From positions 17,607-81,606 of the forward strand of contig JAHIDZ010000020.1 in assembly GCA_018901755.1 (NCBI GenBank): DNA of 64,000 nucleotides. Direction: 5' to 3'. Shown one piece after another: positions 26,580 to 63,602 of the stretch. The notes under the pieces were generated by a model. It did no database searches. It saw nothing but the letters and a program-made list of their open reading frames with translations, and was not told the DNA's origin. How positions within the stretch are numbered: the stretch's first letter is position 1; each line of letters opens with the position of its first letter. This DNA is from Nanobdellota archaeon (GTDB taxonomy: Archaea; Aenigmatarchaeota; Aenigmatarchaeia; Aenigmatarchaeales; Aenigmatarchaeaceae). The translations under genes and the position numbers were made by a program.

Positions 26580-27251
26580 TTACCCGCAAACTGCGATGCC
26601 ATCTACTGTGTTGGATGGCCCGACGATTCTCAAGTTGTGACTACCGATTAGTCCACTGCCTATCTTGCATGTGACAGACGAATCTGCTGTAATGATTCCA
26701 GCACAACCAATAGGAGAAACCTCGTTTCCATCAACATAAAACTTCAAATCAGAAATATTGATAGAACCAGTTCCAAAGCTTTTTACAATGATATTGATTT
26801 CTCCATTAGGGCAAGTCACCTTAGTCATAGCAAACATAGCAATGGTTGACACGGAGTTTGCCCCAGCTGTCGGCAATGATGCACCAGATGCGAAAATAGC
26901 GACCATAACAAAACCAACAATGACATAAACTATTGCTATTATAACTCCTGTGATGAGAAGTTTTTTTGCAAAAGCTTTGTCCTTCTCTTGTAAAAGAAGA
27001 TATGCCACTATTCCTCCCATGAACGTAAAGAATATGGGGAGCAAGTACCATAACTTGCAAGTACCATAACTTGCTTGGTTTTCAGTGTATTTTACAACTG
27101 GAATAGGTTTTTCTGATATAGCAACATTTATAGCTTCGATTATGTCTCTTTCAGACCAGTTTGCTCGCAGGAGATCGTTTTTAATTCGATCTAATGGAAC
27201 TCCTTCATTTAGGTTTGTTTTTATGTAATCAACAAGCTTCTGATTCGCCAT
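26580..27251 (-). CDS. Membrane protein with exported beta-rich C-terminal domain
   Basis: 223 residues. N-terminal cytoplasmic module VDYIKTNLNEGVPLDRIKND LLRANW (a small helical motif often seen at the start of membrane proteins in small archaea). Two membrane helices follow (LWYLLPIFFTFMGGIVAYLLL and LLITGVIIAIVYVIVGFVMV), then an exported domain with CPNGEINIIVKSFGTGSINIS and three further cysteines, resembling the beta-sandwich part of pilin-like proteins. Function unknown; surface role inferred. Confidence 0.7.
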   Translation of the reverse strand: MANQKLVDYIKTNLNEGVPLDRIKNDLLRANWSERDIIEAINVAISEKPIPVVKYTENQASYGTCKLWYLLPIFFTFMGGIVAYLLLQEKDKAFAKKLLITGVIIAIVYVIVGFVMVAIFASGASLPTAGANSVSTIAMFAMTKVTCPNGEINIIVKSFGTGSINISDLKFYVDGNEVSPIGCAGIITADSSVTCKIGSGLIGSHNLRIVGPSNTVDGIAVCG

Positions 27252-34204: not shown

Positions 34205-34921
34205 ATGAGATTCTGGGAAATTGACTTTATGCGTGGAATAGCGATAATCTTAATGGTTATTTTCAATTGGTCCTACACACTCAAATATTTTAATATATTT
34301 ATTCCGCAGGCAGGATGGATATTTTGGTTTCTATTTCCGAGATTCATTGCAGGTTTGTTTATTTTCATAGCTGGAATATCACTTGTTCTAAGCTACAACC
34401 ATATTGGAAATATTAAACTTTTCAATCAAAAAAACATTAAACGCGGATTGAAAATATTTGGTCTTGGATTACTAGTAACATTTGTCACATGGTTGCTGTT
34501 TCCAAACGAATTCATAATATTTGGTATATTACATCTTATCGGGCTATCAATAATTCTCGCTCTTCCATTTATGAAATTCAAAAAATTAAATTTAATACTT
34601 GGAAGTGTTATATTTACAATCGGTTTAATTCTCCAGAACTTCACATTTGATTTTCCATGGCTATTGTGGTTAGGATTCTATCCAACAAATATGGTTACAT
34701 TCGATTACTTCCCTCTACTGCCTTGGTTTGGTATCATTTTAATTGGAATATATTTTGGAAAACTTTTATACAAAAATAATAAAAGAACTTTCAAAATATC
34801 AGATCTATCAAATTACCTAAATATTAAATTCGTCAGTTTTCTAGGAAAGAATTCATTATTAATTTATCTAATGCATCAACCACTACTAATCTTAATTTTA
34901 TTTCTTCTTGGTTTCTTGTAA
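34205..34921 (+). CDS. Multipass membrane protein, DUF1624/acyltransferase-like
   Basis: 238 residues, seven or so hydrophobic helices. The N-terminus RFWEIDFMRGIAIILMVIFNW with Arg-Gly after the first polar stretch, the FIFIAGISLVLSYN loop and the C-terminal YLMHQPLLILI match the heparan-glucosaminide N-acetyltransferase-like DUF1624 family. A role in sugar acylation is possible but not shown. It converges with aIF5B, overlapping by 24 bases. Confidence 0.8.
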   Translation: MRFWEIDFMRGIAIILMVIFNWSYTLKYFNIFIPQAGWIFWFLFPRFIAGLFIFIAGISLVLSYNHIGNIKLFNQKNIKRGLKIFGLGLLVTFVTWLLFPNEFIIFGILHLIGLSIILALPFMKFKKLNLILGSVIFTIGLILQNFTFDFPWLLWLGFYPTNMVTFDYFPLLPWFGIILIGIYFGKLLYKNNKRTFKISDLSNYLNIKFVSFLGKNSLLIYLMHQPLLILILFLLGFL

Positions 34922-36634
34922 CGATTTAGCTAATTCCGCTTCTGCATACATACCAAGTTCTTCAAGAATTTTAATATTATCCTTTGTTACTACCGTTGAT
35001 AGTTCATCATTTTCTTTTATTTGTCGCCCCATTGTAGGACCATCAATAGATACAGCTACTCGTTCACCACGTTTAGCTTCTGTTACAGAAACATTCTCAG
35101 ACTGTAATGCTTTGACAAATCCTATTTCTTTACCGTTTTTCTGTAATTTCGCACCAGATCTTAGTAGTCCATCAATAATTTCAACTCCTACTACTACAGG
35201 GTCGGTTGCATGGAATACCATACCTCTTAACAATTTAATTTTAGCAGGCATTGTTATTTGAGATAATTTTTCTTCTTTTATTTTTTCATATTCTTTCTTC
35301 AAAAATACATCATAATCATCAAACAGTTTGTAAATAATGTCACTTTTTATTATTTTAACGTTTCTATCTTTTGATTCCTTATCTATATCTGAATCTAAAG
35401 AAACATTAAATGCAATAATTACTTTTCTTAAAGGATCTTTAACTGATTCCACTTCAAGAATATCTCTTCTCAATATGTTACCTACTTCAGCTCTCTTGAT
35501 TGGAATATTTTTTTGTTTTAAAATATGAATTAATGCTTCAAGACTACCAAGATTATCTGCTTTAATTATAACACCATCTCCGTCTGATTCAAATTCAATA
35601 TGTTCAACAGATTCCATTAAATCTTTCTTCACAAATTCTATATCTTTCTCATCAGAAACAGCTGCTATAGGACTACCTGCTACTGCTTTTTCTAAACCAG
35701 GTGCACTTATTTTTATTCCAGCTGCGGCAGAAACATGATCTATCGGTTCAAATTGCCTTTCAACGCGCATTTCTCTTAGAGCTGGTGGTTTTAACAATGC
35801 TTTAATCTTTGTAACTATCGGTTCCTTACCACCAATAATTAACCAGTCGCCTTTGTTTATTTCACCATCAAAAAGAATAACATCAATTGTCATTCCTAAT
35901 CCTTTAACTTCTTTAACTTCTAGTATAGATCCTCGTCCGGTTCCTTCGGTTATCTCTAATTCTTTTTTCAAAAACTGCTGTGATAAACCCGTAAGAATCA
36001 TAAGTAATTCAGGCACACCCTCACCAGTTATCCCAGAAACTGGAATCATAGCCACAGTCTTTTTAAAATCTTCAACCTTGTCATAGCGTTCTGCTTCAAA
36101 ACCACGCTCTGATAATTGCCCGACTAATTTATAATGCAATTCATCGAAACGCTGTCTTACCCATTCTGGTTGTTTATTATACGATTCAACAAATGTATCA
36201 TCCTCATGTTTTGTCCAACCTTCAATTCTATCTAATTTAGTTTCAGCTACAAGAAAAGGTGTTTTAAATTGTTTCAAAAATTCCAATGATTCGTCTGTTT
36301 GAGGTTTGAATCCTTCATTAATATCAACAATAAGAATTGCTATATCTGCGCAGCTTCCGCCACGTTTACGCAACGATGTAAAAGCCGCGTGTCCCGGCGT
36401 ATCAATAATCAACAGACCGGGTATTGTAATTTCAATATGCAACTTCTCTAACAAATTTCCAACGACTTTTTTAACAGTTTCTATCGGAATCTGCGTCGCG
36501 CCGATAGCTTGAGTTATTCCGCCTGCCTCTTTATCTACGACTAACGTCTCTCTAATCTTGTCTAGCAAAGTCGTCTTTCCATGGTCAACATGACCGAGCA
36601 CGCATACTACCGGCTGTCTTATCATACCAATCAA
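34898..36634 (-). CDS. infB: Translation initiation factor aIF5B
   Basis: 578 residues. The GTPase at the N-terminus: G1 VLGHVDHGKTTLLDKIRE (uninterrupted here, unlike aIF2 gamma), switch region GGITQAIGATQIP, G3 IIDTPGHAAFTSLRKRG, G4 AETKLDRI. Domains II-IV follow; the C-terminal helix ending AELAKSLQE is shorter than in eukaryotes. It promotes subunit joining. The start could also be the third Met (MIRQPVVCVLG). Overlaps the DUF1624 gene at its 3' end. Confidence 0.97.
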   Translation of the reverse strand: MIGMIRQPVVCVLGHVDHGKTTLLDKIRETLVVDKEAGGITQAIGATQIPIETVKKVVGNLLEKLHIEITIPGLLIIDTPGHAAFTSLRKRGGSCADIAILIVDINEGFKPQTDESLEFLKQFKTPFLVAETKLDRIEGWTKHEDDTFVESYNKQPEWVRQRFDELHYKLVGQLSERGFEAERYDKVEDFKKTVAMIPVSGITGEGVPELLMILTGLSQQFLKKELEITEGTGRGSILEVKEVKGLGMTIDVILFDGEINKGDWLIIGGKEPIVTKIKALLKPPALREMRVERQFEPIDHVSAAAGIKISAPGLEKAVAGSPIAAVSDEKDIEFVKKDLMESVEHIEFESDGDGVIIKADNLGSLEALIHILKQKNIPIKRAEVGNILRRDILEVESVKDPLRKVIIAFNVSLDSDIDKESKDRNVKIIKSDIIYKLFDDYDVFLKKEYEKIKEEKLSQITMPAKIKLLRGMVFHATDPVVVGVEIIDGLLRSGAKLQKNGKEIGFVKALQSENVSVTEAKRGERVAVSIDGPTMGRQIKENDELSTVVTKDNIKILEELGMYAEAELAKSLQETKKK

Positions 36635-36690
36635 TTAGTAATAGAAGTATTTAATAATTTACATATGAAATTTCTATAAATTTTTAACTA

Positions 36691-37839
36691 TTATTCAAGC
36701 TCTACTGAGTGTACTCCGGCCTTTGAGATTTTTATTTCCACTATTTCTAAACCATGTTTTTTCCATTCCTGTTCTATTTTTTTGTTTGTATTCTGATCAA
36801 AACTTACTGCGATTGCGCAATCTCCTCCTCCTGCGCCTGAAAATTTTCCAGCAGCTCCAAATATTTGAGCAATATCTGATATTAACGCAAGTTCCTTTGT
36901 TTCAAAATTATTTCGAGATTCCAAACTCAATTGTTGTAAAGCTTTTCTATTTGCATTTAATAGTGCAACTATTTTTTCTGTTTCATTTGCCTCCATTGCT
37001 CCAATCAGTTGCTGTGTTATTTCTTTTATATCATTAATTATTTTCCAATATTTTTCCATTTGAGTTTCTTTGAAAGAATTCAGTTTTAAAACCAATTCCT
37101 TCGTTGATGCGCTATATCCGGTATAACAAACACTTAAATTAAAATTATTAGGTAAAACCAATTCTTCTACAGAAAAGGCTGGCCATTCACAATCCATTAT
37201 TTCTGATAATTTTTTTCCAGAATTTATTTCTGATATTAACCAATTCGGATCAAATCTTTTATAAACAATTACACCTCCGAATGTTGCAGATGCTATATCA
37301 AAGGCGCTTCCAATTTTTCCCTGAGCGAGATAATGTGCAGTTGAAGCAATTTTATAAATCAGTTCTTTTTGTTTTTTTTCTTCAATGCCTATTCCATGAA
37401 ATTTAAGAAGTGCGGCAACTATTGCCGAACTCACTGCAGCGCTACTACCGAAACCAATTTTTTCTCCCTTACCAGTTTTAGCTATTGCTTGAGAAGAATC
37501 AGTTTCTATAATAAAATTTCTTATTTTCTTGCCTTTTTGAATAAGATATTGAAGCGTTATTTCTATTGCCTTTTCGCTTACGCAGATTTTAGTTTTCTCT
37601 TCTTGATTTAATGTTTTCTTCCAATTTAATTTTGTTCCGTCAAACTCTGCTTCGATATTAATCAATCCAATATCTGGTGCATTGAGTATTATTTTTTGAT
37701 TTTCTTCAATACTTGCAGAACAATATCTATCAACAGCCATTACTATGCATGGACACCCTACTTCCAAAACACTCCATTCTCCAGACAACATTAATTTCCC
37801 AGGCGCAGAAATTTTCAACAAATTATCACATATCCTCAA
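36691..37839 (-). CDS. Phosphomevalonate kinase, GHMP family
   Basis: 382 residues. GHMP motifs: KISAPGKLMLSGEWSVLE at the N-terminus, KIGFGSSAAVSSAIVAALL near residue 125 (phosphate loop) and GAAGKFSGAGGGDCAIAV near the C-terminus. Best fit is the eukaryote/bacterial (ERG8-like) phosphomevalonate kinase, not the archaeal dehydratase route. The start is uncommon: TTG at 37837-37839 is the likely initiator, 14 bases inside the preceding mvaD frame. Operon order is mevalonate kinase, decarboxylase, then this gene. Confidence 0.85.
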   Translation of the reverse strand: MRICDNLLKISAPGKLMLSGEWSVLEVGCPCIVMAVDRYCSASIEENQKIILNAPDIGLINIEAEFDGTKLNWKKTLNQEEKTKICVSEKAIEITLQYLIQKGKKIRNFIIETDSSQAIAKTGKGEKIGFGSSAAVSSAIVAALLKFHGIGIEEKKQKELIYKIASTAHYLAQGKIGSAFDIASATFGGVIVYKRFDPNWLISEINSGKKLSEIMDCEWPAFSVEELVLPNNFNLSVCYTGYSASTKELVLKLNSFKETQMEKYWKIINDIKEITQQLIGAMEANETEKIVALLNANRKALQQLSLESRNNFETKELALISDIAQIFGAAGKFSGAGGGDCAIAVSFDQNTNKKIEQEWKKHGLEIVEIKISKAGVHSVELE

Positions 37840-38940
37840 CTTTTATTTTTTCGGTTTTCTCATCAAAAATAGCTTTTCTTGGTTTGCCTGTTCTGTAATC
37901 AATCAATGCTTCTTTTTCATCTGTTAAAATTTTTGGTCCATCTCCTACCCTACAAATCATTATCTTTTGAACACCTTCAATACCTTGCAACATTTTCTGT
38001 ACTCTTGCAACATTTTCTGTACTCTTGCAACATTTTCTGCTGTAGTATAGATATGTACATTCGGTCCAGCATCAAAGGTATATGCTGCGATTATCTTTCC
38101 CTCTATACTATTCAATTCATGCACTGCATAAATTATTTCTCTAGAAATATTATTTAGATACATTATCGGTGGCCATGTATCAAGCATTACTGCATGCATA
38201 TCACTACTTTCTCTCATTGTTATCTCGCCGAATTTTTGAAAATCTTTCGCAATAACAGCTTTCTTCATTTCTTCAATTACTTTTTCAATATATTGCATTC
38301 TTGCTGGATATAAAAAACTTGTTGCAATTGTCTGTTTCATGCCTGCTCTACTGCTTATTTTCTTTTTTCCAGCATCGACAATTCCTATCACATTCCTTAA
38401 TTCTGGCCAGTGCGAAGCAGGCGCAATTTGAACTGCGATTGAATCTGAACCATCATCTTTCTCACCTTTTCTCCATTCTACAAAACCACCCAAAACACTT
38501 CTTGATGCACTACCTGAACCAATTCTTGCAAAAATAGATGTCTCGCTTCCTGAAAGATTCAAATCAGCTGCCTTTAGCGTAGCAATAGCCAATGCCGCTA
38601 AACCAGCAGCACTACTTGCAAAACCAGCTGCAGTTGGAAAACAATTAATTGAAACGATAAGAGCTTTTTCATTTATTTCTGCCCTTTTTCTTATAATATC
38701 CAATTGTTTCATTCTTTCAGCAATTTCTTTTTCTTTTAGATCCATTTTTTTCCCATTAAGCCAAAATTCATCTTCCTTTAAATCCTGAAGAAACATTACT
38801 GTTGTTCTTGTTTTCAGTTGTTCGTCCATTGTGAAACTCAAACTGCTGTTCTTTGGAAGTATCAATTCATCATCTCTTTTTCCCCAATATTTTATCACAG
38901 CAATATTTGCTGTTGCCTCACAGGTTGCAATTCCTTTCAT
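37826..38940 (-). CDS. mvaD: Diphosphomevalonate decarboxylase, C-terminus frameshifted by a 20-bp tandem repeat
   Basis: The N-terminal frame (37960-38940, 326 residues) shows ANIAVIKYWGKRDDELILP, NCFPTAAGFASSAAGLAALA and DAGPNVHIYTT, all decarboxylase motifs. Then three copies of a 20-bp unit (37984-38039) shift the frame and end the protein early. Deleting one unit reads on into an intact tail: IEGVQKIMICRVGDGPKILT through VEDM at 37826, which is what homologues have. As given, that tail is a separate 44-codon ORF (37826-37960) starting ATG overlapping TAA. This is either phase variation, a recent mutation or a sequence error. Confidence 0.85.
37984..38039. repeat. 20-bp tandem repeat in mvaD
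   Basis: Minus strand: CAGAAAATGTTGCAAGAGTA, the same again, then its first 16 bases. The unit of 20 is not a multiple of three, so each copy gained or lost shifts the reading frame. Confidence 0.95.
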
Positions 38941-39936
38941 TTAATCGCCTCCAATTTTTGTTTTCTTGCAATTGAAACCGACATTTTCAAGTGAATTTGC
39001 AACATTCTGTTGTAGCTCTTCTCCCGGTGTAAGTATTAGCATTAGTCCCCCTCTACCAGTCCCTGTTAATTTAGCACCGAATGCATTTGCTTCTAATGCT
39101 ATCTTTTGCATTTTATCAAGTTCTTTACAGGAAACGGTTATTTCTTGTAATAATTCATGATTTTTATTCATCAGTTCTCCTAAGATTTTCCAGTTTCCAT
39201 TTTCTAAAGCAGGAAGCGCCGAATGAAAAACATTTTTATAATTTTCAAATACTTTTTCAACCATTTCTGGATTCTTATCCTTCAATATCTTTACATCCTT
39301 AACAACTATCTTTGTTTCTTGCGTTATTCCAGAATTTGCTAAAACAATTTCAACTGATTGTTTTATTTTCATACGCTCTATTTTATTTAATCCACCATGT
39401 AAATTTTTTTCAAAAGTTATAAGACCACCAAATACGGCACAGGTATTATCTATTCCAGATGGTGTACCCGAGCCTGCTTCTTCGGCAATATAAGCTGCTC
39501 CATTTATTTGTTCATCGGTCATATTCAAATCAAGTAGTTGATTCAAAGCTCTGGAAATACTTGCAGCAAGTGCAGCACTCGCCCCAATACCAGATGCACA
39601 AACGAGATTTCCAGAAAGTGTAATCTTTATCGGATTTATTTTAGTATCTATTTTGAAATGTTTTAACAATGCATTAAGTTGTCTTTGTATTTCATCTCTC
39701 TTTGTCTCTTTATAACCCGGAGTTTCGGGTCTATTATCAATAAATGTCAATCCTTCTGTTCCTATCTCAACAGTTGCTTTTGTATAATCTGTGAGCGCTG
39801 CTGCTATTGCTGGCAAACCATAAACAACAAAGTGTTCGCCGAATAAAATTGTTTTTCCATAACCAATTCCATTTCCATTTCCATTTCCATATGTATCTAT
39901 AGAATGTGCTTCAGACGAAACAGAACTTTCAATCAT
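38941..39936 (-). CDS. mvk: Mevalonate kinase
   Basis: 331 residues. GHMP motifs: GKTILFGEHFVVYGLPAIAA at about residues 28-47, VCASGIGASAALAASISRAL near 112 and GAKLTGTGRGGLMLIL near 290. The segment EEAGSGTPSGIDNTCAVFGG is characteristic of mevalonate kinase. A glycine/asparagine repeat (YGNGNGNGIGYG) marks the N-terminus. First gene of the mevalonate kinase/decarboxylase/phosphomevalonate kinase operon; its stop directly precedes the decarboxylase start. Confidence 0.92.
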   Translation of the reverse strand: MIESSVSSEAHSIDTYGNGNGNGIGYGKTILFGEHFVVYGLPAIAAALTDYTKATVEIGTEGLTFIDNRPETPGYKETKRDEIQRQLNALLKHFKIDTKINPIKITLSGNLVCASGIGASAALAASISRALNQLLDLNMTDEQINGAAYIAEEAGSGTPSGIDNTCAVFGGLITFEKNLHGGLNKIERMKIKQSVEIVLANSGITQETKIVVKDVKILKDKNPEMVEKVFENYKNVFHSALPALENGNWKILGELMNKNHELLQEITVSCKELDKMQKIALEANAFGAKLTGTGRGGLMLILTPGEELQQNVANSLENVGFNCKKTKIGGD

Positions 39937-40006
39937 AATTATTAATGGGCAATAGAACCTTAAATATATATCAGATTATTCTCCTTAAAATGACTATTTT
40001 TAATAA
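39937..40006. promoter_or_regulatory. Promoter region of the mevalonate operon
   Basis: CTTAAATATATATC near 39959-39972 gives a TATA box about 25 bases before the mevalonate kinase start on the minus strand. Confidence 0.4.
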
Positions 40007-40057
40007 TTAACAAAGGCTCTGCAAATCTACTTCACCGAAGAACTTAGCTTTTACGAC
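40007..40057 (-). pseudogene. Duplicated 3' end of the Pop5 gene
   Basis: Minus strand encodes VKAKFFGEVDLQSLC before a TAA. This repeats the C-terminus of the intact Pop5 gene upstream (AAKQKFFGEVDLTNFV) with many synonymous changes. It has no start of its own and is separated from Pop5 by a frame-disrupted segment. Confidence 0.6.
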
Positions 40058-40285
40058 TCATTTTCTGGAAAGAAGCATTGATTATATTTCTTACTAATTC
40101 ATTTATTTCTCTACCAGCATAATCTTCTGGAAATGCTGTAAAATGATATATTACCCCAGGAGATGCTATTCCCATATTTATAGAAACAAATATTTTTTTG
40201 TTCGTCTTTAGTAATAAAATTAATTGATAACCTACCATTTCCATATTCAGTAATTTTAAATAAATTACCAAGAAAATCTTTCTAA
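40044..40285 (-). pseudogene. Frame-disrupted small gene inserted after Pop5
   Basis: Two frames together read as one small protein: DFLGNLFKITEYGNGRLSIN continuing to FITKDEQKNICFYKYGN in one frame, then ASPGVIYHFTAFPEDYAGRE and INELVRNIINASFQKM in another. Neither half begins with a good start codon at its own N-terminus. The segment lies exactly between the intact and the duplicated Pop5 3' ends, so it looks like cargo of an insertion. No family recognised. Confidence 0.5.
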
Positions 40286-40292
40286 ATGCATT

Positions 40293-40679
40293 CTAAACAA
40301 AATTAGTTAAATCTACTTCGCCAAAGAACTTTTGCTTAGCTGCTTTTATTGTTCCAGATACGCCAAGAACTGTTATCATTGCTCTACTGTCTCCAATTCT
40401 TTGAACTAAAGCTAAAGACATTCTTATCTGCTCAACAGACGTGTGAGAACATTTAATTATTCCTATTTGTTTTTCGTCATCATAATTTTTTTTACCCAAC
40501 CAAACACTTGCTTCAGCTACACCCAGCTCGCCTAAGAAGTTTAATAGAGAATGCCATATACTGTTGAATACATCTATAGCAAATATTTTCTTTTCTGAAA
40601 CTACCTGAAATGCTATGTAACGTTTTCTACTTCTCAATGTTGGTGATAGTGGTCTTGGTCGATCATCCAATTTCAACAC
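40293..40679 (-). CDS. rnp2: RNase P protein component 2 (Pop5)
   Basis: 128 residues. PTLRSRKRYIAFQVVSEKKI at the N-terminus matches the Pop5 consensus (LRxRKRYIxFEV), followed by the RRM-like fold with GIIKCSHTSVEQIRMSLALV and FFGEVDL near the end. It binds RNase P RNA with Rpp30, whose gene overlaps it by 17 bases upstream, the usual archaeal order. Its 3' end is duplicated downstream. Confidence 0.92.
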   Translation of the reverse strand: MLKLDDRPRPLSPTLRSRKRYIAFQVVSEKKIFAIDVFNSIWHSLLNFLGELGVAEASVWLGKKNYDDEKQIGIIKCSHTSVEQIRMSLALVQRIGDSRAMITVLGVSGTIKAAKQKFFGEVDLTNFV

Positions 40680-41403: not shown

Positions 41404-41787
41404 TTAAAGTTTAAGTTTTCTCGGGGCTTCCTTATCAATCTCAGTACTAAGTTTATTGATATCAGATTCCCAGTATACCTCAGATGCTTCTGTTGATTTG
41501 ATTTTTCCTTCAAATTTGTTAACAATAAAATAATGTAATTTTGCTTTCTCCCCATTACTTGTAGTCCAAATATCAGAATGGATGAATTTAGGATTCTTTA
41601 TAATTATTCCTAGTTCTTCTCTCATTTCTCTTATTATACATTCTTCAAGTGTCTCATTAGAATCAAGATGCCCTCCTGGGAAACACACAATTCCTGGGCC
41701 AACCTCATCATCTGATCTTCGTTTCTCAACTAAGAATTTATCTCCCTTTAAAATTATTGCTGTTGTGATATGTACACAGTCGTTCAT
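41404..41787 (-). CDS. Nudix hydrolase
   Basis: 127 residues. Nudix box GGHLDSNETLEECIIREMRE followed by ELGI (G-x5-E-x7-RE-x2-EE-x-G) near residues 38-61. Substrate unknown: a nucleotide pyrophosphatase is most likely. Its start overlaps the stop of the IDI-2-like chimera as ATGA, so it shares the isoprenoid operon. The core lacks the extra helices of type 1 isopentenyl diphosphate isomerase, so I do not call it that. Confidence 0.88.
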   Translation of the reverse strand: MNDCVHITTAIILKGDKFLVEKRRSDDEVGPGIVCFPGGHLDSNETLEECIIREMREELGIIIKNPKFIHSDIWTTSNGEKAKLHYFIVNKFEGKIKSTEASEVYWESDINKLSTEIDKEAPRKLKL

Positions 41788-42536
41788 GGAATCATCTTCT
41801 CAAATTCTTCATATTTTTTTCCATCGATATAATCAAGCGTCTCTTTTAACCATAACTCTTGCATATTATTTTTAGGTTTAAAAGAACGAATAGCTCTCTC
41901 AGGATTATCTCCATTCTTAATAACATCAAACATGTTCTTTATGATATCATCTGACCATTCTTCTCTTTTTGTTAAAGATGAAACAAAATCATTATTCCAT
42001 TTAAGTTGATAATCGACCAATTTCTGTGTATACTCTGGGTAATAGTTTTCTAAAAGTTTTTTTGATTTGGCCCTTTCGTAGTATGATAAGAATCTTTCAA
42101 TTCTAGTTAAACCAGGATATCGGTCTCCAGTTTCGCATATCCATAACGGAGCTCTAAAAGCTACATATGCTCCCATATGTTCAAAAATTTTATCCGAAAG
42201 AAATAAACCTTCGCTTACTTTACTTTTCCAATCAACAGGACCGCTGTGATCATATATTGCTTGATATATTTCATCTATCTCATTTTTATCAAACGAATTA
42301 TATCCATTCAATATCTCTCGAGATTTTTCAGCGCCACCAGTCATTGCAGTTATCATAAGCGGAATAGATAATTTTTTACCAAAGAATGTAATAGTTGTAT
42401 CAACATCATTTATACACAATTCGGAAAGAGTTTGATGAATCAGAGTAACGTCTTTGAAAAGCGGATTTGCTGTTTCGACATCTTTTTCCAAACAAACTTT
42501 TATATGTTCTGCTTTTCTTTTTTGAATATTAGTCAT
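41784..42536 (-). CDS. Chimeric ORF: IDI-2 N-terminus fused to an HD-hydrolase-like tail
   Basis: 250 residues. The first ~84 residues are the start of type 2 isopentenyl diphosphate isomerase (RKAEHIKVCLEKDVE, VTLIHQTLSELCINDVDTTI, IPLMITAMTGGAEKSR), which should be ~340 residues long. At about residue 85 the sequence switches to an unrelated domain (EIYQAIYDHSGPVDWKSKVS, LFLSDKIFEHMGAYVAFRAP) resembling the C-terminal half of an HD phosphohydrolase. Neither half is complete. The joint keeps the frame. It looks like an in-frame deletion between two genes; the FMN site is lost. Confidence 0.7.
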   Translation of the reverse strand: MTNIQKRKAEHIKVCLEKDVETANPLFKDVTLIHQTLSELCINDVDTTITFFGKKLSIPLMITAMTGGAEKSREILNGYNSFDKNEIDEIYQAIYDHSGPVDWKSKVSEGLFLSDKIFEHMGAYVAFRAPLWICETGDRYPGLTRIERFLSYYERAKSKKLLENYYPEYTQKLVDYQLKWNNDFVSSLTKREEWSDDIIKNMFDVIKNGDNPERAIRSFKPKNNMQELWLKETLDYIDGKKYEEFEKMIP

Positions 42537-42540
42537 AAAA

Positions 42541-43341
42541 TCACCCCGTAATTATTGTACCAACATTATTTCCTTTCATCGCATTAACAATATTTTCAGA
42601 TATCAGACCGCTAATAATTTGTGATTTTACTCCAATATTCATCAATTCTGAAACTTTTGTCAACATGCCACCAGATACATCTGTGTCTAAAGATCCTGTC
42701 AGCGCTTTTTTAACCTCTTCAAAGTTTTGTGAGTTTATTTCTGTAATATGTTTAGCATCATTAAATTTATTTGGATCTTTATCATATATTCCATTTACAT
42801 TTGTAATATGAATTATCTTTTCAGCGTTTAATTTTTTTGCAAGATATGGAGCTATTTGATCACCTGACAAAACAGCACATTTCTGTTTTTCATCATAAGC
42901 CGGAACACCGTATAAGACGGGTATCATTCCTATGTTTACTAAATTTTCTATTGCCGTTATATCTCCTTTCACTATTCTGCCCGCATTCAATATAATGAAA
43001 GAAGATGCCTGGCATGGAATAGCTGGTAAACCATGTTTGATTAGATGCTGTGTAGCAATACAATTTAATTCGTTCTGTAAACGTTGTACTTCTGCAAAAT
43101 CAACAAGCTGTTCATCTTTAACAATTCCAAGATGTAATCCTGTTCTCTTTGCAATCGAATGACCATAAGAACCTGCGCCATGAACGAGAATCAAACGCAT
43201 TTCTTTAGGATTATATCCTTTTGCTATTTCTGCAGAAAATTTCTCAAGATTCGCATAATCAACTTTAGGTATTTCACTTTTCTTATCAGTTATAATACTC
43301 CCGCCTAATTTTATTATTATAAGTGACTTCATAATAATCAT
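42541..43341 (-). CDS. ipk: Isopentenyl phosphate kinase
   Basis: 266 residues, amino acid kinase fold. KSLIIIKLGGSIITDKKS at the start, LILVHGAGSYGHSIAKRTGL with the catalytic-site histidine, and GSLDTDVSGGMLTKVSELM near the end are typical of IPK. It converts isopentenyl phosphate to IPP, the last step of the archaeal alternative mevalonate route. The start may be the ATG 9 bases in (MKSLIII). Directly follows the radical SAM gene. Confidence 0.92.
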   Translation of the reverse strand: MIIMKSLIIIKLGGSIITDKKSEIPKVDYANLEKFSAEIAKGYNPKEMRLILVHGAGSYGHSIAKRTGLHLGIVKDEQLVDFAEVQRLQNELNCIATQHLIKHGLPAIPCQASSFIILNAGRIVKGDITAIENLVNIGMIPVLYGVPAYDEKQKCAVLSGDQIAPYLAKKLNAEKIIHITNVNGIYDKDPNKFNDAKHITEINSQNFEEVKKALTGSLDTDVSGGMLTKVSELMNIGVKSQIISGLISENIVNAMKGNNVGTIITG

Positions 43342-44463
43342 CTATACATTTATTTTTTCTAATTTTTTACTTGTATCCTGATTTAGTTTAAAACACGTTG
43401 GATCCATACCGTTGGTCTTATGTGTATATCCATAAGCAAGTATTCTGCATCCACCCATGCACGAATTATATTTTTTACACTGTTCACATCCACGAGGTGG
43501 TTCTCTAAATAGTTTGAAACCGTTTTCCCAAATATCTTTCAAACTTCTTTCTCGTATGTTTCCTTCATAAAAAACAGGTAAATCCATACAAGGACATGGT
43601 ATTAAATTTCCATCTGCACTTATTGCACATATCCTTCTTCCGGCTTTACACCCTGCAAAATTAACTCTAATATATTTCGAATATCTCTTTAACCAATCGT
43701 ATGATTCAAATGTAGGACCCTCAATATCTATTAACCATTTTTTATCATAAGAAATAAACTCATCAATAATTTCTTTCATTTTAACTAAATATTCTGGGAT
43801 TGAAAATAATTTTTCTAAACTGCAACAACCAGTTGGTATAGGTTGAAATATACTTAATGTATCAATATTTTTATCATGACAAAATTTCATTAATTGAGAC
43901 GGCCCATCGGCATTAACTTTAGTCAATACACAACTTACAATATTATGGATATTCGTTTGATTAATAAGATTAATATTTTTAATAACTTTGTCAAATTGTT
44001 TAGGATTTGTATTTTTTATTTTAGCATAAAGATTTCTATCAAGCGTATCTAAAGGTGTTTGTATAGACATTACACCCATTTTATCAAGTTTATTTATTTT
44101 TTCCTTATTCAAAAGGGTACAGTTCGACGCTATCTTAATTTGCAAATTATAGTTTCTCATTTCCTTCAGTAGTGTCCAAATATCTTTCCTTATGAATGGT
44201 TCTCCGCCAGATATAACAAATCTTGGCACACCATAGTCTGCTGCTTCTTTTATGAAATTTAATGCTTCCTTTGTACTAAGTTCTTTATTTTTCATATTTC
44301 CACTTGATGAAAAACAGTAAAAACATCTGTTATTACATTTGTTTGTTATATTCCAAAATATACAACCCTTAAGCGCCACATCTTTATTTTTTGCAGTTTC
44401 ATCAACATGACTCTCATTAAATTTTAATTTTAATCTAAGCATATCATTACCCACTTTTTCCAA
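43342..44463 (-). CDS. Radical SAM/SPASM protein (second of pair)
   Basis: 373 residues. The radical SAM cluster motif CNNRCFYC lies near residue 41 and the SPASM region near the C-terminus has GCKAGRRICAISADGNLIPC and later CEQCKKYNSCMGGC, for auxiliary Fe-S clusters. Such proteins often modify peptides or act in heme/cofactor synthesis (AhbC/AhbD-like). The start overlaps the preceding SPASM gene by 17 bases, so they are a matched pair inside the isoprenoid operon. Substrate unknown. Confidence 0.85.
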   Translation of the reverse strand: MEKVGNDMLRLKLKFNESHVDETAKNKDVALKGCIFWNITNKCNNRCFYCFSSSGNMKNKELSTKEALNFIKEAADYGVPRFVISGGEPFIRKDIWTLLKEMRNYNLQIKIASNCTLLNKEKINKLDKMGVMSIQTPLDTLDRNLYAKIKNTNPKQFDKVIKNINLINQTNIHNIVSCVLTKVNADGPSQLMKFCHDKNIDTLSIFQPIPTGCCSLEKLFSIPEYLVKMKEIIDEFISYDKKWLIDIEGPTFESYDWLKRYSKYIRVNFAGCKAGRRICAISADGNLIPCPCMDLPVFYEGNIRERSLKDIWENGFKLFREPPRGCEQCKKYNSCMGGCRILAYGYTHKTNGMDPTCFKLNQDTSKKLEKINV

Positions 44464-45472
44464 TCCAACATTTTTGATCTACACCGTCTCTCTGTCTTAA
44501 ATAACAACCACCACGACACTGCGTAATTAATTTACAGTCTGGCTTCTTACAAGTTTTTAATAAAATATTCGATGTAAATTCTTCTGAATTTAATATGTTC
44601 TCGATTGGTTGTTTTCGCATATTACCAAAAATCTTTGAATCCATCGAGCAATAATGTATATCACCCAGTGCACTGGTATACATCATCTTCTCTCCAGCTG
44701 GGCATGCACCATGTTTTATGCTAGAATCCAAAAGACTAATTAGAGGATCAGCTGTCCTTATCATTATGTTGTCATCTTTGGAAAGTTTAATTAATTCTTC
44801 ATTTAAATTCTTATATTCATTGAATGAAAGAATCTCGTTCTGATTATTGATTGCCGTACCAGCGGGCAACATATCCCATATTCTATAAGAATCAGCATTT
44901 TTTCTTGCAAACTCAAATATCTCTGGTATCACTGTTCTATTACATTTCATTGCGATCGTAGCTATTATTATAGGAACGCCAACCTCTTTTAAATTTTCAA
45001 TTGCTTTGAGTAATAATGCGTATGACCCGTTGAAACCGCGAATTCTATCGTGTTCAGATGGTAAAATGTGATCTAAATTCATTTGTACTTGAGTAATTCC
45101 TGCTTCTTTTATTTTTCTAGCATTATCTTTTGTGATAAGTGATCCATTACTGCAAATATGAACAACAAATCCAATCTCGGCAGCATATCTCGCTATTTCA
45201 AAAAAATCTTCTCGGAGCAATGGTTCGCCACCCAATAATGAAATTTGTTTAAACCCCAACTGTTTTAATTTATTAAAATATGTCTTATATTCTTCTATTG
45301 TCAACTCATTTTTTCCTTCAGTTTTTTCGCCAGCGAAACAATAAATGCAATTGAAATTACACCTTTTTGTAAATTCTATGCAAGCCCAAATAGGAGTTTT
45401 TGAAACGATGCTATGCTTCTTTGAGAAATCTCTATCCCCTTTAAATTCAAAGGTAACTCTACACATCAACAA
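44447..45472 (-). CDS. Radical SAM/SPASM protein (first of pair)
   Basis: 341 residues. CNFNCIYC near residue 38, then LLGGEPLLREDFFEIARYAA; SPASM region GACPAGEKMMYTSALGDIHY with CSMDS, and CKKPDCKLITQCRGGCYLR. Related to but clearly distinct from its neighbour. It lies 7 bases from the prenyl synthase stop, suggesting one operon with isoprenoid genes. Possible roles: peptide maturation, heme branch, or lipid/quinone modification. Confidence 0.85.
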   Translation of the reverse strand: MLMCRVTFEFKGDRDFSKKHSIVSKTPIWACIEFTKRCNFNCIYCFAGEKTEGKNELTIEEYKTYFNKLKQLGFKQISLLGGEPLLREDFFEIARYAAEIGFVVHICSNGSLITKDNARKIKEAGITQVQMNLDHILPSEHDRIRGFNGSYALLLKAIENLKEVGVPIIIATIAMKCNRTVIPEIFEFARKNADSYRIWDMLPAGTAINNQNEILSFNEYKNLNEELIKLSKDDNIMIRTADPLISLLDSSIKHGACPAGEKMMYTSALGDIHYCSMDSKIFGNMRKQPIENILNSEEFTSNILLKTCKKPDCKLITQCRGGCYLRQRDGVDQKCWIGKSG

Positions 45473-45479
45473 TCATCAT

Positions 45480-46562
45480 TTAATTTTCTCTTTCAACGAG
45501 ATAATCTGCAAATGCCTTTATCTTTTCTTTTGCTTCTGACGCTGGAAACAATTTATCTACGTCTTTCCAAGCACTCATAATCATGTTCTTTGCATAATTT
45601 TTTGCGTAGTTGACAGAATCATATTTTTTAATAATATCAATTGCTTCTTGCTTTAAATTGAAATCCGTTGGATGCATGTTCAAAATTTCTATTAATCTTT
45701 TTTTATCTTCTACAGAAGCATTCTGAAATGTATGAATAATCATCAGTGTTCTTTTTCCTTCTGTTATATCACTTCCAATATACTCTTTTACAAATTGCGC
45801 AGAATCACTTGTAGCAGTTAAATTCAATATATCATCTTTAATCTGGAAGGCTACTCCTATTGTTTCAGACAGTTTACCAATTGCCTCTACCTGTTCAGTT
45901 GTTGCTCCTGACAAAGCTGCTGCTATTTTAGCAGACATTCTAGCCAATGTACCGGTTTTATATGCGCACATCTGAAGATACTGCTTCTCACTCAAATTGT
46001 CTGCATTTGCTAATCCTTTGTGCCAGGTTATATCATATGCTTGTCCAAATGATAAATTAATCATTTCTTGAGCGTATATCTCATAAACATTCAAAAGTAA
46101 TTCGGGCTTGAATTTGTCTTTGTTTTTAATCAATGATAAAAGCGGCAAAAAATACATTGTATTCCCAGCATTTATAGCAATATCAACGCCAAACATCTTA
46201 TGTGTGCACGGCTTTCCTCTTCTTAGATCACTGGAATCCTCAACATCATCTACCATAAGTGTTCCGTTATGAACAACTTCTGGTATTACAACAAATTCTT
46301 TTACATCTTCTGGATTCTTTCCTAAAGCTTCTGCAATAAGTAAAAACAATACTGGTCTCCATCTCTTTCCTCCGCGATTTAATAAATCCCATATTGGATC
46401 TGCAACACCTTTGTTAATTGCATTAATATCATGTTCATACCTAGCGTTCCCGCATGTGAATAATAAACTTTCCAAATCATATTTTTTTGGTATATATTTT
46501 TCAATTATTCTATCTATTTCAGGACCCTTTTCTTTAAGAACTTCCTTAATATCAACCATCAT
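45480..46562 (-). CDS. Polyprenyl diphosphate synthase (GGPP synthase type)
   Basis: 360 residues. First aspartate-rich motif LMVDDVEDSSDLRRGKP near residue 105 (DDxxD) and second FQIKDDILNLTA near residue 236. A family-typical N-terminal GGKRWRPVLFLL motif is present. It would condense IPP with allylic diphosphates to geranylgeranyl diphosphate for ether lipids. First gene of the minus-strand operon; divergent from the TrmB-type regulator with about 180 bases between the starts. Confidence 0.92.
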   Translation of the reverse strand: MMVDIKEVLKEKGPEIDRIIEKYIPKKYDLESLLFTCGNARYEHDINAINKGVADPIWDLLNRGGKRWRPVLFLLIAEALGKNPEDVKEFVVIPEVVHNGTLMVDDVEDSSDLRRGKPCTHKMFGVDIAINAGNTMYFLPLLSLIKNKDKFKPELLLNVYEIYAQEMINLSFGQAYDITWHKGLANADNLSEKQYLQMCAYKTGTLARMSAKIAAALSGATTEQVEAIGKLSETIGVAFQIKDDILNLTATSDSAQFVKEYIGSDITEGKRTLMIIHTFQNASVEDKKRLIEILNMHPTDFNLKQEAIDIIKKYDSVNYAKNYAKNMIMSAWKDVDKLFPASEAKEKIKAFADYLVEREN

Positions 46563-62810: not shown

Positions 62811-63327
62811 CGAATAAAATTATTGAACCGAAAACCAATGAGTGATAGAATTCTTTGTCATGTTTTATCTTCTCAAGACGCTCTGAATCTAGAACAAGAA
62901 TCTTGGTTTCACGATTTAATTTTTCGCTTATCATTCTTTCTACAGAAGCTATCTTTTCCTGAGGAACTGGTTTGTTTGTTTTTATCCATATGTCAATATC
63001 ACTATCTTTATTGTTCGTTCCGTTTGCATACGATCCGTATAATCCTATTGCTTCTGGTTTAAGATTAGACATGGATGTTATATCTATGCTGTTTATGTTT
63101 AATAGTATCTTTATTGCTTTAGTCATTGGAGAATACGCGATTTCAAAACCATTTTCTGTTTTTTTCATGATTCCTTCCTTTGTTAACAAGGAAAAATATC
63201 CGGAAACTAATCCTTTGCTTAAGGTTAACTCTTTAGCTGTCTGGCTGACTCTTATTTGATTTGCATTCATGATGTAATTTATCATCTTTATTCTCTCTTT
63301 GCTTGAAAATAGATTTTGTATGTTCAT
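62791..63327 (-). CDS. Winged-helix plus MNT nucleotidyltransferase (second pair)
   Basis: 178 residues from ATG 63325-63327 (MNIQNLFSSKERIKMINY); an earlier start at 63348 lies inside the operator repeat. A winged helix (QTAKELTLSKGLVSGYFSLL) precedes the nucleotidyltransferase core GLYGSYANGTNNKDSDIDIW. Antitoxin-type AMP transferase. The promoter contains three operator copies, expected for autoregulation. Confidence 0.86.
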   Translation of the reverse strand: MNIQNLFSSKERIKMINYIMNANQIRVSQTAKELTLSKGLVSGYFSLLTKEGIMKKTENGFEIAYSPMTKAIKILLNINSIDITSMSNLKPEAIGLYGSYANGTNNKDSDIDIWIKTNKPVPQEKIASVERMISEKLNRETKILVLDSERLEKIKHDKEFYHSLVFGSIILFGENLEA

Positions 63328-63381
63328 AATATATGAACTATTGTTCATGATATATAAACCTTTCGTTCATTATATATGAAC
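63322..63381. promoter_or_regulatory. Three spaced operator copies at the HEPN/MNT promoter
   Basis: Near-palindromic 17-bp units: GTTCATAATATATGAAC at 63322-63338, GTTCATGATATATAAAC at 63343-63359 and GTTCATTATATATGAAC at 63365-63381. Start-to-start spacing is 21 and 22 bases, two helical turns. The middle unit covers the TATA box (TTTATATATC on the minus strand) and the first covers the start codon. Confidence 0.75.
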
Positions 63382-63602
63382 TATATTTATATCTTTATTA
63401 TAGAAAACGTGTTAACGCAGTATAAAGTTTCTTTACCCACACAGGGAGTAATCTCCAAATTGTCTGAAATTTTTCAATATATTCAATTCATGTTGTCTCT
63501 CACTATGCCGAGTTTATTATTCAGAACAAGAGATTTTGGACGGACTGATTAAATTAAGATGTTTCTGTATGACTTTTAGAAACTAATAGAAATTTTAAGT
63601 TA
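63382..63602. other. Intergenic stretch, no gene seen
   Basis: About 220 bases between the operator array and the stop of the last gene. It contains AT-rich runs and a GC-containing stretch (CACACAGGGAGTAATCTCC). No tRNA, ORF over 30 codons or clear hairpin. Confidence 0.35.

Follow-up and report, generated by a model that had tools for sequence, protein, structure and literature searches.

The locus and its tandem array

The window (the whole 64,000-nucleotide stretch analyzed) belongs to a metagenome-assembled genome of 835,007 bases in 21 contigs, about 7,000 bases of which were masked. Several mevalonate-pathway genes lie on its minus strand, among them an mvaD gene whose reading frame is broken at a short tandem array:

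34898..36634, minus strand: archaeal IF2, a synteny anchor for comparison with a sister genome
36691..37839, minus strand: phosphomevalonate kinase (PMK), open frame (TIGR01220, 226 bits)
37826..37993, minus strand: orphaned mvaD tail frame, 55 residues from an ATG within the last repeat copy, GxGP motif kept
37960..38940, minus strand: mvaD, frameshifted, an ORF of 326 residues that is native to about residue 312 and continues with 14 out-of-frame residues
37984..38039, minus strand: perfect tandem array, 2.8 copies of the 20-bp unit CAGAAAATGTTGCAAGAGTA, the ancestral length plus one unit
38941..39936, minus strand: mevalonate kinase (MVK), open frame (TIGR00549, 225 bits)
40293..40679, minus strand: Pop5, the other synteny anchor
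41784..42536, minus strand: a second lesion, an in-frame fusion of idi-2 residues 1-72 with the C-terminal portion of an HD-domain protein
42541..43341, minus strand: isopentenyl phosphate kinase (IPK), open frame (NF040647, 224.6 bits against a cut-off of 120)
45480..46562, minus strand: polyprenyl (GGPP-type) synthase, open frame (PF00348, E 8e-65)

Tandem Repeats Finder gave positions 37984-38039 a period of 20, 2.8 copies, 100% match and a score of 112, the highest in the window, and the coding (minus) strand, read directly, consists of CAGAAAATGTTGCAAGAGTA twice followed by CAGAAAATGTTGCAAG. Program and sequence thus agree with the three copies, the last of them partial, of the preliminary description. 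The array contains a 36-base exact self-match at lag 20, the second longest in the genome at lags 10-60, and as three simulated first-order Markov genomes contained no self-match of at least 16 bases, chance occurrence of the array was ruled out. A search of the whole 835-kb genome found the 20-mer unit nowhere else. A DNA hairpin was considered as a driver of slippage and rejected, the folding of the strand being unremarkable (z = -0.27).

Reading frame, product and age of the lesion

The identity of the gene is clear from the diphosphomevalonate decarboxylase profile TIGR01240, which scores 328.6 bits on mvaD against a cut-off of 171.35. The C-terminal domain of the assembled frame is incomplete (PF18376, MDD_C, matched at 2-137 of 186 only), and the window carries a broken allele of mvaD rather than an intact MvaD. 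The gene has no second copy in the genome, where MVK accounts for the one additional weak match. With two units, a 364-residue ORF runs from 38940 to 37826 on the minus strand, and with three the ORF ends at 37960 after 326 residues; one unit is likewise out of frame, and five are in frame again (3 x 20 = 60).

A scan of public genomes identified MvaD relatives in Micrarchaeota, the closest being L028 (75%), L029 (73%), L030 (70%) and L031 (67%). The two-unit frame aligns to these four with no gap at the array site and continues through the conserved tail, ML..IEGV.K...K.G.GP, which supports the earlier proposal that two copies yield an intact mvaD. The ancestral length was therefore two units and the contig has one extra. 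All mvaD matches in other genomes are open frames with no internal stops, so that the window's frame is broken relative to intact orthologues, as in a young pseudogene. Before the break, the window is 69-76% identical to the relatives (70-79% among themselves), and after it 42-49% (40-57% among themselves). This comparison with four relatives revealed no measurable decay of the tail, and the frameshift is therefore recent on the scale of these relatives. Recency had been argued earlier from the preserved tail and is borne out by these values, and that argument would have failed had relatives lacked the tail; those checked do carry it, with its conserved GxGP motif. Preservation of the tail had also been taken as a sign of reversibility, for which it does not speak.

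The AlphaFold model of the intact L028 MvaD (mean pLDDT 89) matches solved MvaD structures and has four strands after the last helix (316-324, 329-331, 346-349 and 354-357). Based on alignment and structure prediction, the 326-residue product is without counterparts of all four, that is, of the last core strand of the C-terminal domain and the strands after it. The AlphaFold model of this short form is confident save at the C-terminus, where the last helix is kept and is followed by the 14 unrelated residues, over which pLDDT declines to about 50 or lower. The absence of these last strands and of the end of the PF18376 match makes it likely, as judged from the models, that the function of the 326-residue MvaD is lost. 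There may be a further effect on PMK, as its TTG-initiated ORF overlaps the mvaD stop codon (initiation may instead be a few codons downstream); its translation may be coupled to that of mvaD, and premature termination in mvaD could then lower PMK translation too.

It is feasible, though in our judgment improbable, that the broken gene works, either because the 326-residue MvaD is active or because the tail is supplied through termination-reinitiation or -1 ribosomal frameshifting. The arrangement of the frames would lend itself to this: they overlap by 109 nt, the stop codon TAA of the first overlaps an ATG of the tail frame in a TAATG junction, and a further ATG lies inside the last repeat copy. 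In addition, the TIGR01240 model ends before the tail and the window's mvaD matches it nearly to its end, and AlphaFold models the short form with confidence except at its C-terminus. However, the MvaD of the relatives is a single chain with the conserved GxGP tail, the missing strand is part of the C-terminal domain, and reinitiation at TAATG, possible in principle, would yield two separate chains. Programmed -1 frameshifting was rejected, as the 109-nt overlap contains no slippery heptamer of the form X_XXY_YYZ, nor any homopolymer run.

Pathway genes in the genome and the gene block in the family

The second lesion lies 3 kb upstream of mvaD, where the type 2 IPP isomerase is represented by about 72 residues only. 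Neither the rest of idi-2 nor the N-terminus of the HD-domain protein was found elsewhere in the genome, and the fusion is either a deletion or a misassembly. An IDI-1-like NUDIX protein is encoded on contig C11 and scores below the family cut-offs. Neither HMG-CoA reductase (HMGR) nor HMG-CoA synthase (HMGS) had a match in this genome, which is 91% complete and in whose missing part both could lie, or in the family genomes searched. The order-level relative G012 has a clear HMGR match and a partial HMGS match that is below the cut-off. No mvaD was found in the other genomes of the family (0/7), which are incomplete and make such absences provisional; on these incomplete genomes, the gene or pathway appears dispensable in the lineage.

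In the same-genus genome G001, whose IF2 is 86% identical to that of the window, the final 19 codons of Pop5 precede IF2 by about 30 bp (L196, 4924-5010), with no MVK-mvaD-PMK block between them. At the site where G001 joins Pop5 to IF2, the window has orf75-MVK-mvaD-PMK (36634-40300). The MVK-mvaD-PMK block is thus patchy, having recently been either acquired by this genome or lost by the others. The gene order in family member G005 is IPK - IDI-1 - HD - NUDIX - Rpp30 - Pop5.

Two minor observations concern these neighborhoods. In G005 the HD-domain gene is found in two overlapping frames of 76 and 197 residues (L184, 2684-2914 and 2872-3465), a further apparent frameshift within this gene cluster. 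Between IPK and the GGPP-type synthase of the window, two adjacent and mutually similar radical-SAM-like genes occupy 43342-45472 on the minus strand, a neighborhood kept in G005 at about 72-75% identity.

Origin and meaning of the extra unit

In the two-unit state, the 16-mer CAGAAAATGTTGCAAG is read in two different frames, once within GCA GAA AAT GTT GCA AGA (AENVAR) and once within CAG AAA ATG TTG CAA G (QKMLQ), and both peptide stretches are close to the family consensus. The core common to both, GAAAATGTTG, is one ordinary spelling of ENV and of KML in an A+T-rich genome. When codings of the peptide were simulated with the genome's codon usage, 8.7% of them had a lag-20 repeat 10 bp or longer, and 0.15% had one 16 bp or longer. 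Since the two-copy state is ancestral and its copies are read in different frames, the two "copies" need not stem from a duplication. None of the four closest relatives (L028-L031) has a repeat at the array site, their longest lag-20 match being 1-4 bases, so that no repeat tract is conserved here; the two-unit seed is lineage-specific and is explicable, from the sequence, by codon coincidence.

We consider it probable that a recent slippage event (a tandem duplication) at a chance repeat added 20 bp and created a loss-of-function mvaD allele in a dispensable, eroding pathway. The seed would have been the chance 16-bp direct repeat in an mvaD of ancestral length, at which slippage during replication displaced the nascent strand by one unit. 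The added 20 bp would move the frame by -1 and end translation after 326 residues, the truncated MvaD would be inactive or unstable, and the allele would be tolerated in a pathway that is dispensable and whose loss is already under way, isoprenoids or their precursors presumably being obtained from the host. The allele resembles known frameshift alleles of slipped-strand mispairing in its perfect head-to-tail copies, its one added unit, its short direct-repeat seed and the restoration of the frame on removal of one unit; nothing sets it apart except that its seed is composed of two conserved peptide stretches in different frames. MVK, PMK, IPK and the GGPP-type synthase, however, have open frames and appear intact, which counts against an eroding pathway, so that the pathway is not simply dead; the IDI-1-like NUDIX protein, although below the family cut-offs, and the incompleteness of the genome with regard to HMGR and HMGS weigh in the same direction.

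A less likely explanation, to which we give modest weight, is that the assembled sequence represents a mixed allele or a minority one, or that a longer array (e.g., five copies, which would put mvaD back in frame) was collapsed to three. The source is a metagenome-assembled genome in 21 contigs, and at k below 37 a three-copy array becomes a loop of undefined copy number. However, words of 17 bases or more are never repeated in a purely two-copy template, which could not give rise to the three-copy-specific 18- to 36-mers of the contig, so that a de Bruijn assembler run at a k of at least 18 must have been supplied with molecules of three or more units. Nor is the assembly generally frame-noisy, within a small sample: with 650 ORFs from relatives as queries, about 50 places in the genome were covered, and mvaD was the sole frame transition found, leading us to reject general frameshift noise. 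The assembly artefact allowed for in the preliminary description is consequently unlikely in its pure form, arising from two-copy molecules alone, at a k of 18 or more; a mixed population or a collapsed array may instead lie behind the contig.

The preliminary description had further proposed that slippage in the repeat could act as a switch on an isoprenoid enzyme. Changes in copy number would then turn MvaD on (two or five copies) or off (three or four) and create two lipid-synthesis states. The array is perfect and ranks high genome-wide, and it resembles contingency loci in that the unit is not a multiple of three, the repeat is inside an ORF, copy number sets the frame and the downstream sequence, here the tail, is intact. 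It is unlike them in having few copies (only 2.8) of a long unit, in being located in the gene of a housekeeping enzyme (MvaD is cytosolic and an atypical target of phase variation), and in that the repeat is not kept in the related genomes L028-L031. Moreover, G001 is without the gene block at this site, and with no HMGS or HMGR found and idi-2 truncated there would be little flux to switch. These observations tell against the proposal, which we regard as very improbable. We give slightly less credence still to its population-level form, in which copy number would be reversible and the members of a single Micrarchaeota clone would by turns synthesize isopentenyl diphosphate from salvaged mevalonate and depend on the host. 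If switching were true, this archaeon would carry a contingency locus of a rare, metabolic kind; literature searches found, among the titles listed, nothing directly comparable on slippage-type phase variation in archaea.

Ordered from the most likely, the readings are therefore a slippage frameshift, a population or assembly effect, a working short or split enzyme, and lastly a phase switch. Rather than a built-in switch, the event looks like an ordinary, recent loss-of-function mutation in a pathway that is already disappearing from the lineage. A 2025 survey described how mevalonate-pathway genes were gained and lost in divergent ways across the orders of Micrarchaeota (PMC12892359), and Ca. 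Micrarchaeum harzensis has no HMGR and an incomplete mevalonate pathway, its lipids or their precursors being thought to derive from the host (PMC8975820). By analogy, a freshly broken mvaD would fit the host-dependent pathway loss of that organism, a case of reductive loss in DPANN. The two are alike in that HMGR was not found, the mevalonate pathway is incomplete and the genome is small. Ca. Micrarchaeum harzensis has Thermoplasma-type enzymes, whereas the genome studied here has the classical MVK-PMK-MvaD variant and, unlike the former, a fresh mvaD frameshift and a truncated, fused idi-2. As an ordinary case, the locus offers a snapshot of how a host-dependent archaeon may shed a membrane-lipid pathway stepwise: no upstream genes were found, idi-2 is a truncated fusion, mvaD has a fresh frameshift and the remaining genes are open. 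It also cautions against concluding from a count of homologues that this genome is isoprenoid-competent.

Other tandem arrays were noted in the course of this work. In the window, a perfect 16-bp direct repeat of 2.1 copies (27041-27074), not a multiple of three, sits in an open 223-residue ORF (26580-27251) and resembles the presumed two-copy seed in mvaD, and an imperfect 21-22-bp array lies at 63321-63384, its unit itself palindromic (GTTCATAATATATGAAC). The top-scoring array of the genome, 3.4 copies of 69 bp with 94% matches (L173, 1580-1809), is outside every ORF of at least 90 residues. Perfect arrays of 11 bp x 5.1 (L156, 1292-1347), 12 bp x 3.8 (L157, 2379-2424) and 12 bp x 3.5 (L116, 7837-7878) lie near the 3′ ends of three SLFN_AlbA_2 / HATPase_c_4 regulator genes of this genome; the 11-bp array, whose unit is not a multiple of three, is a better candidate for phase variation than that of mvaD.
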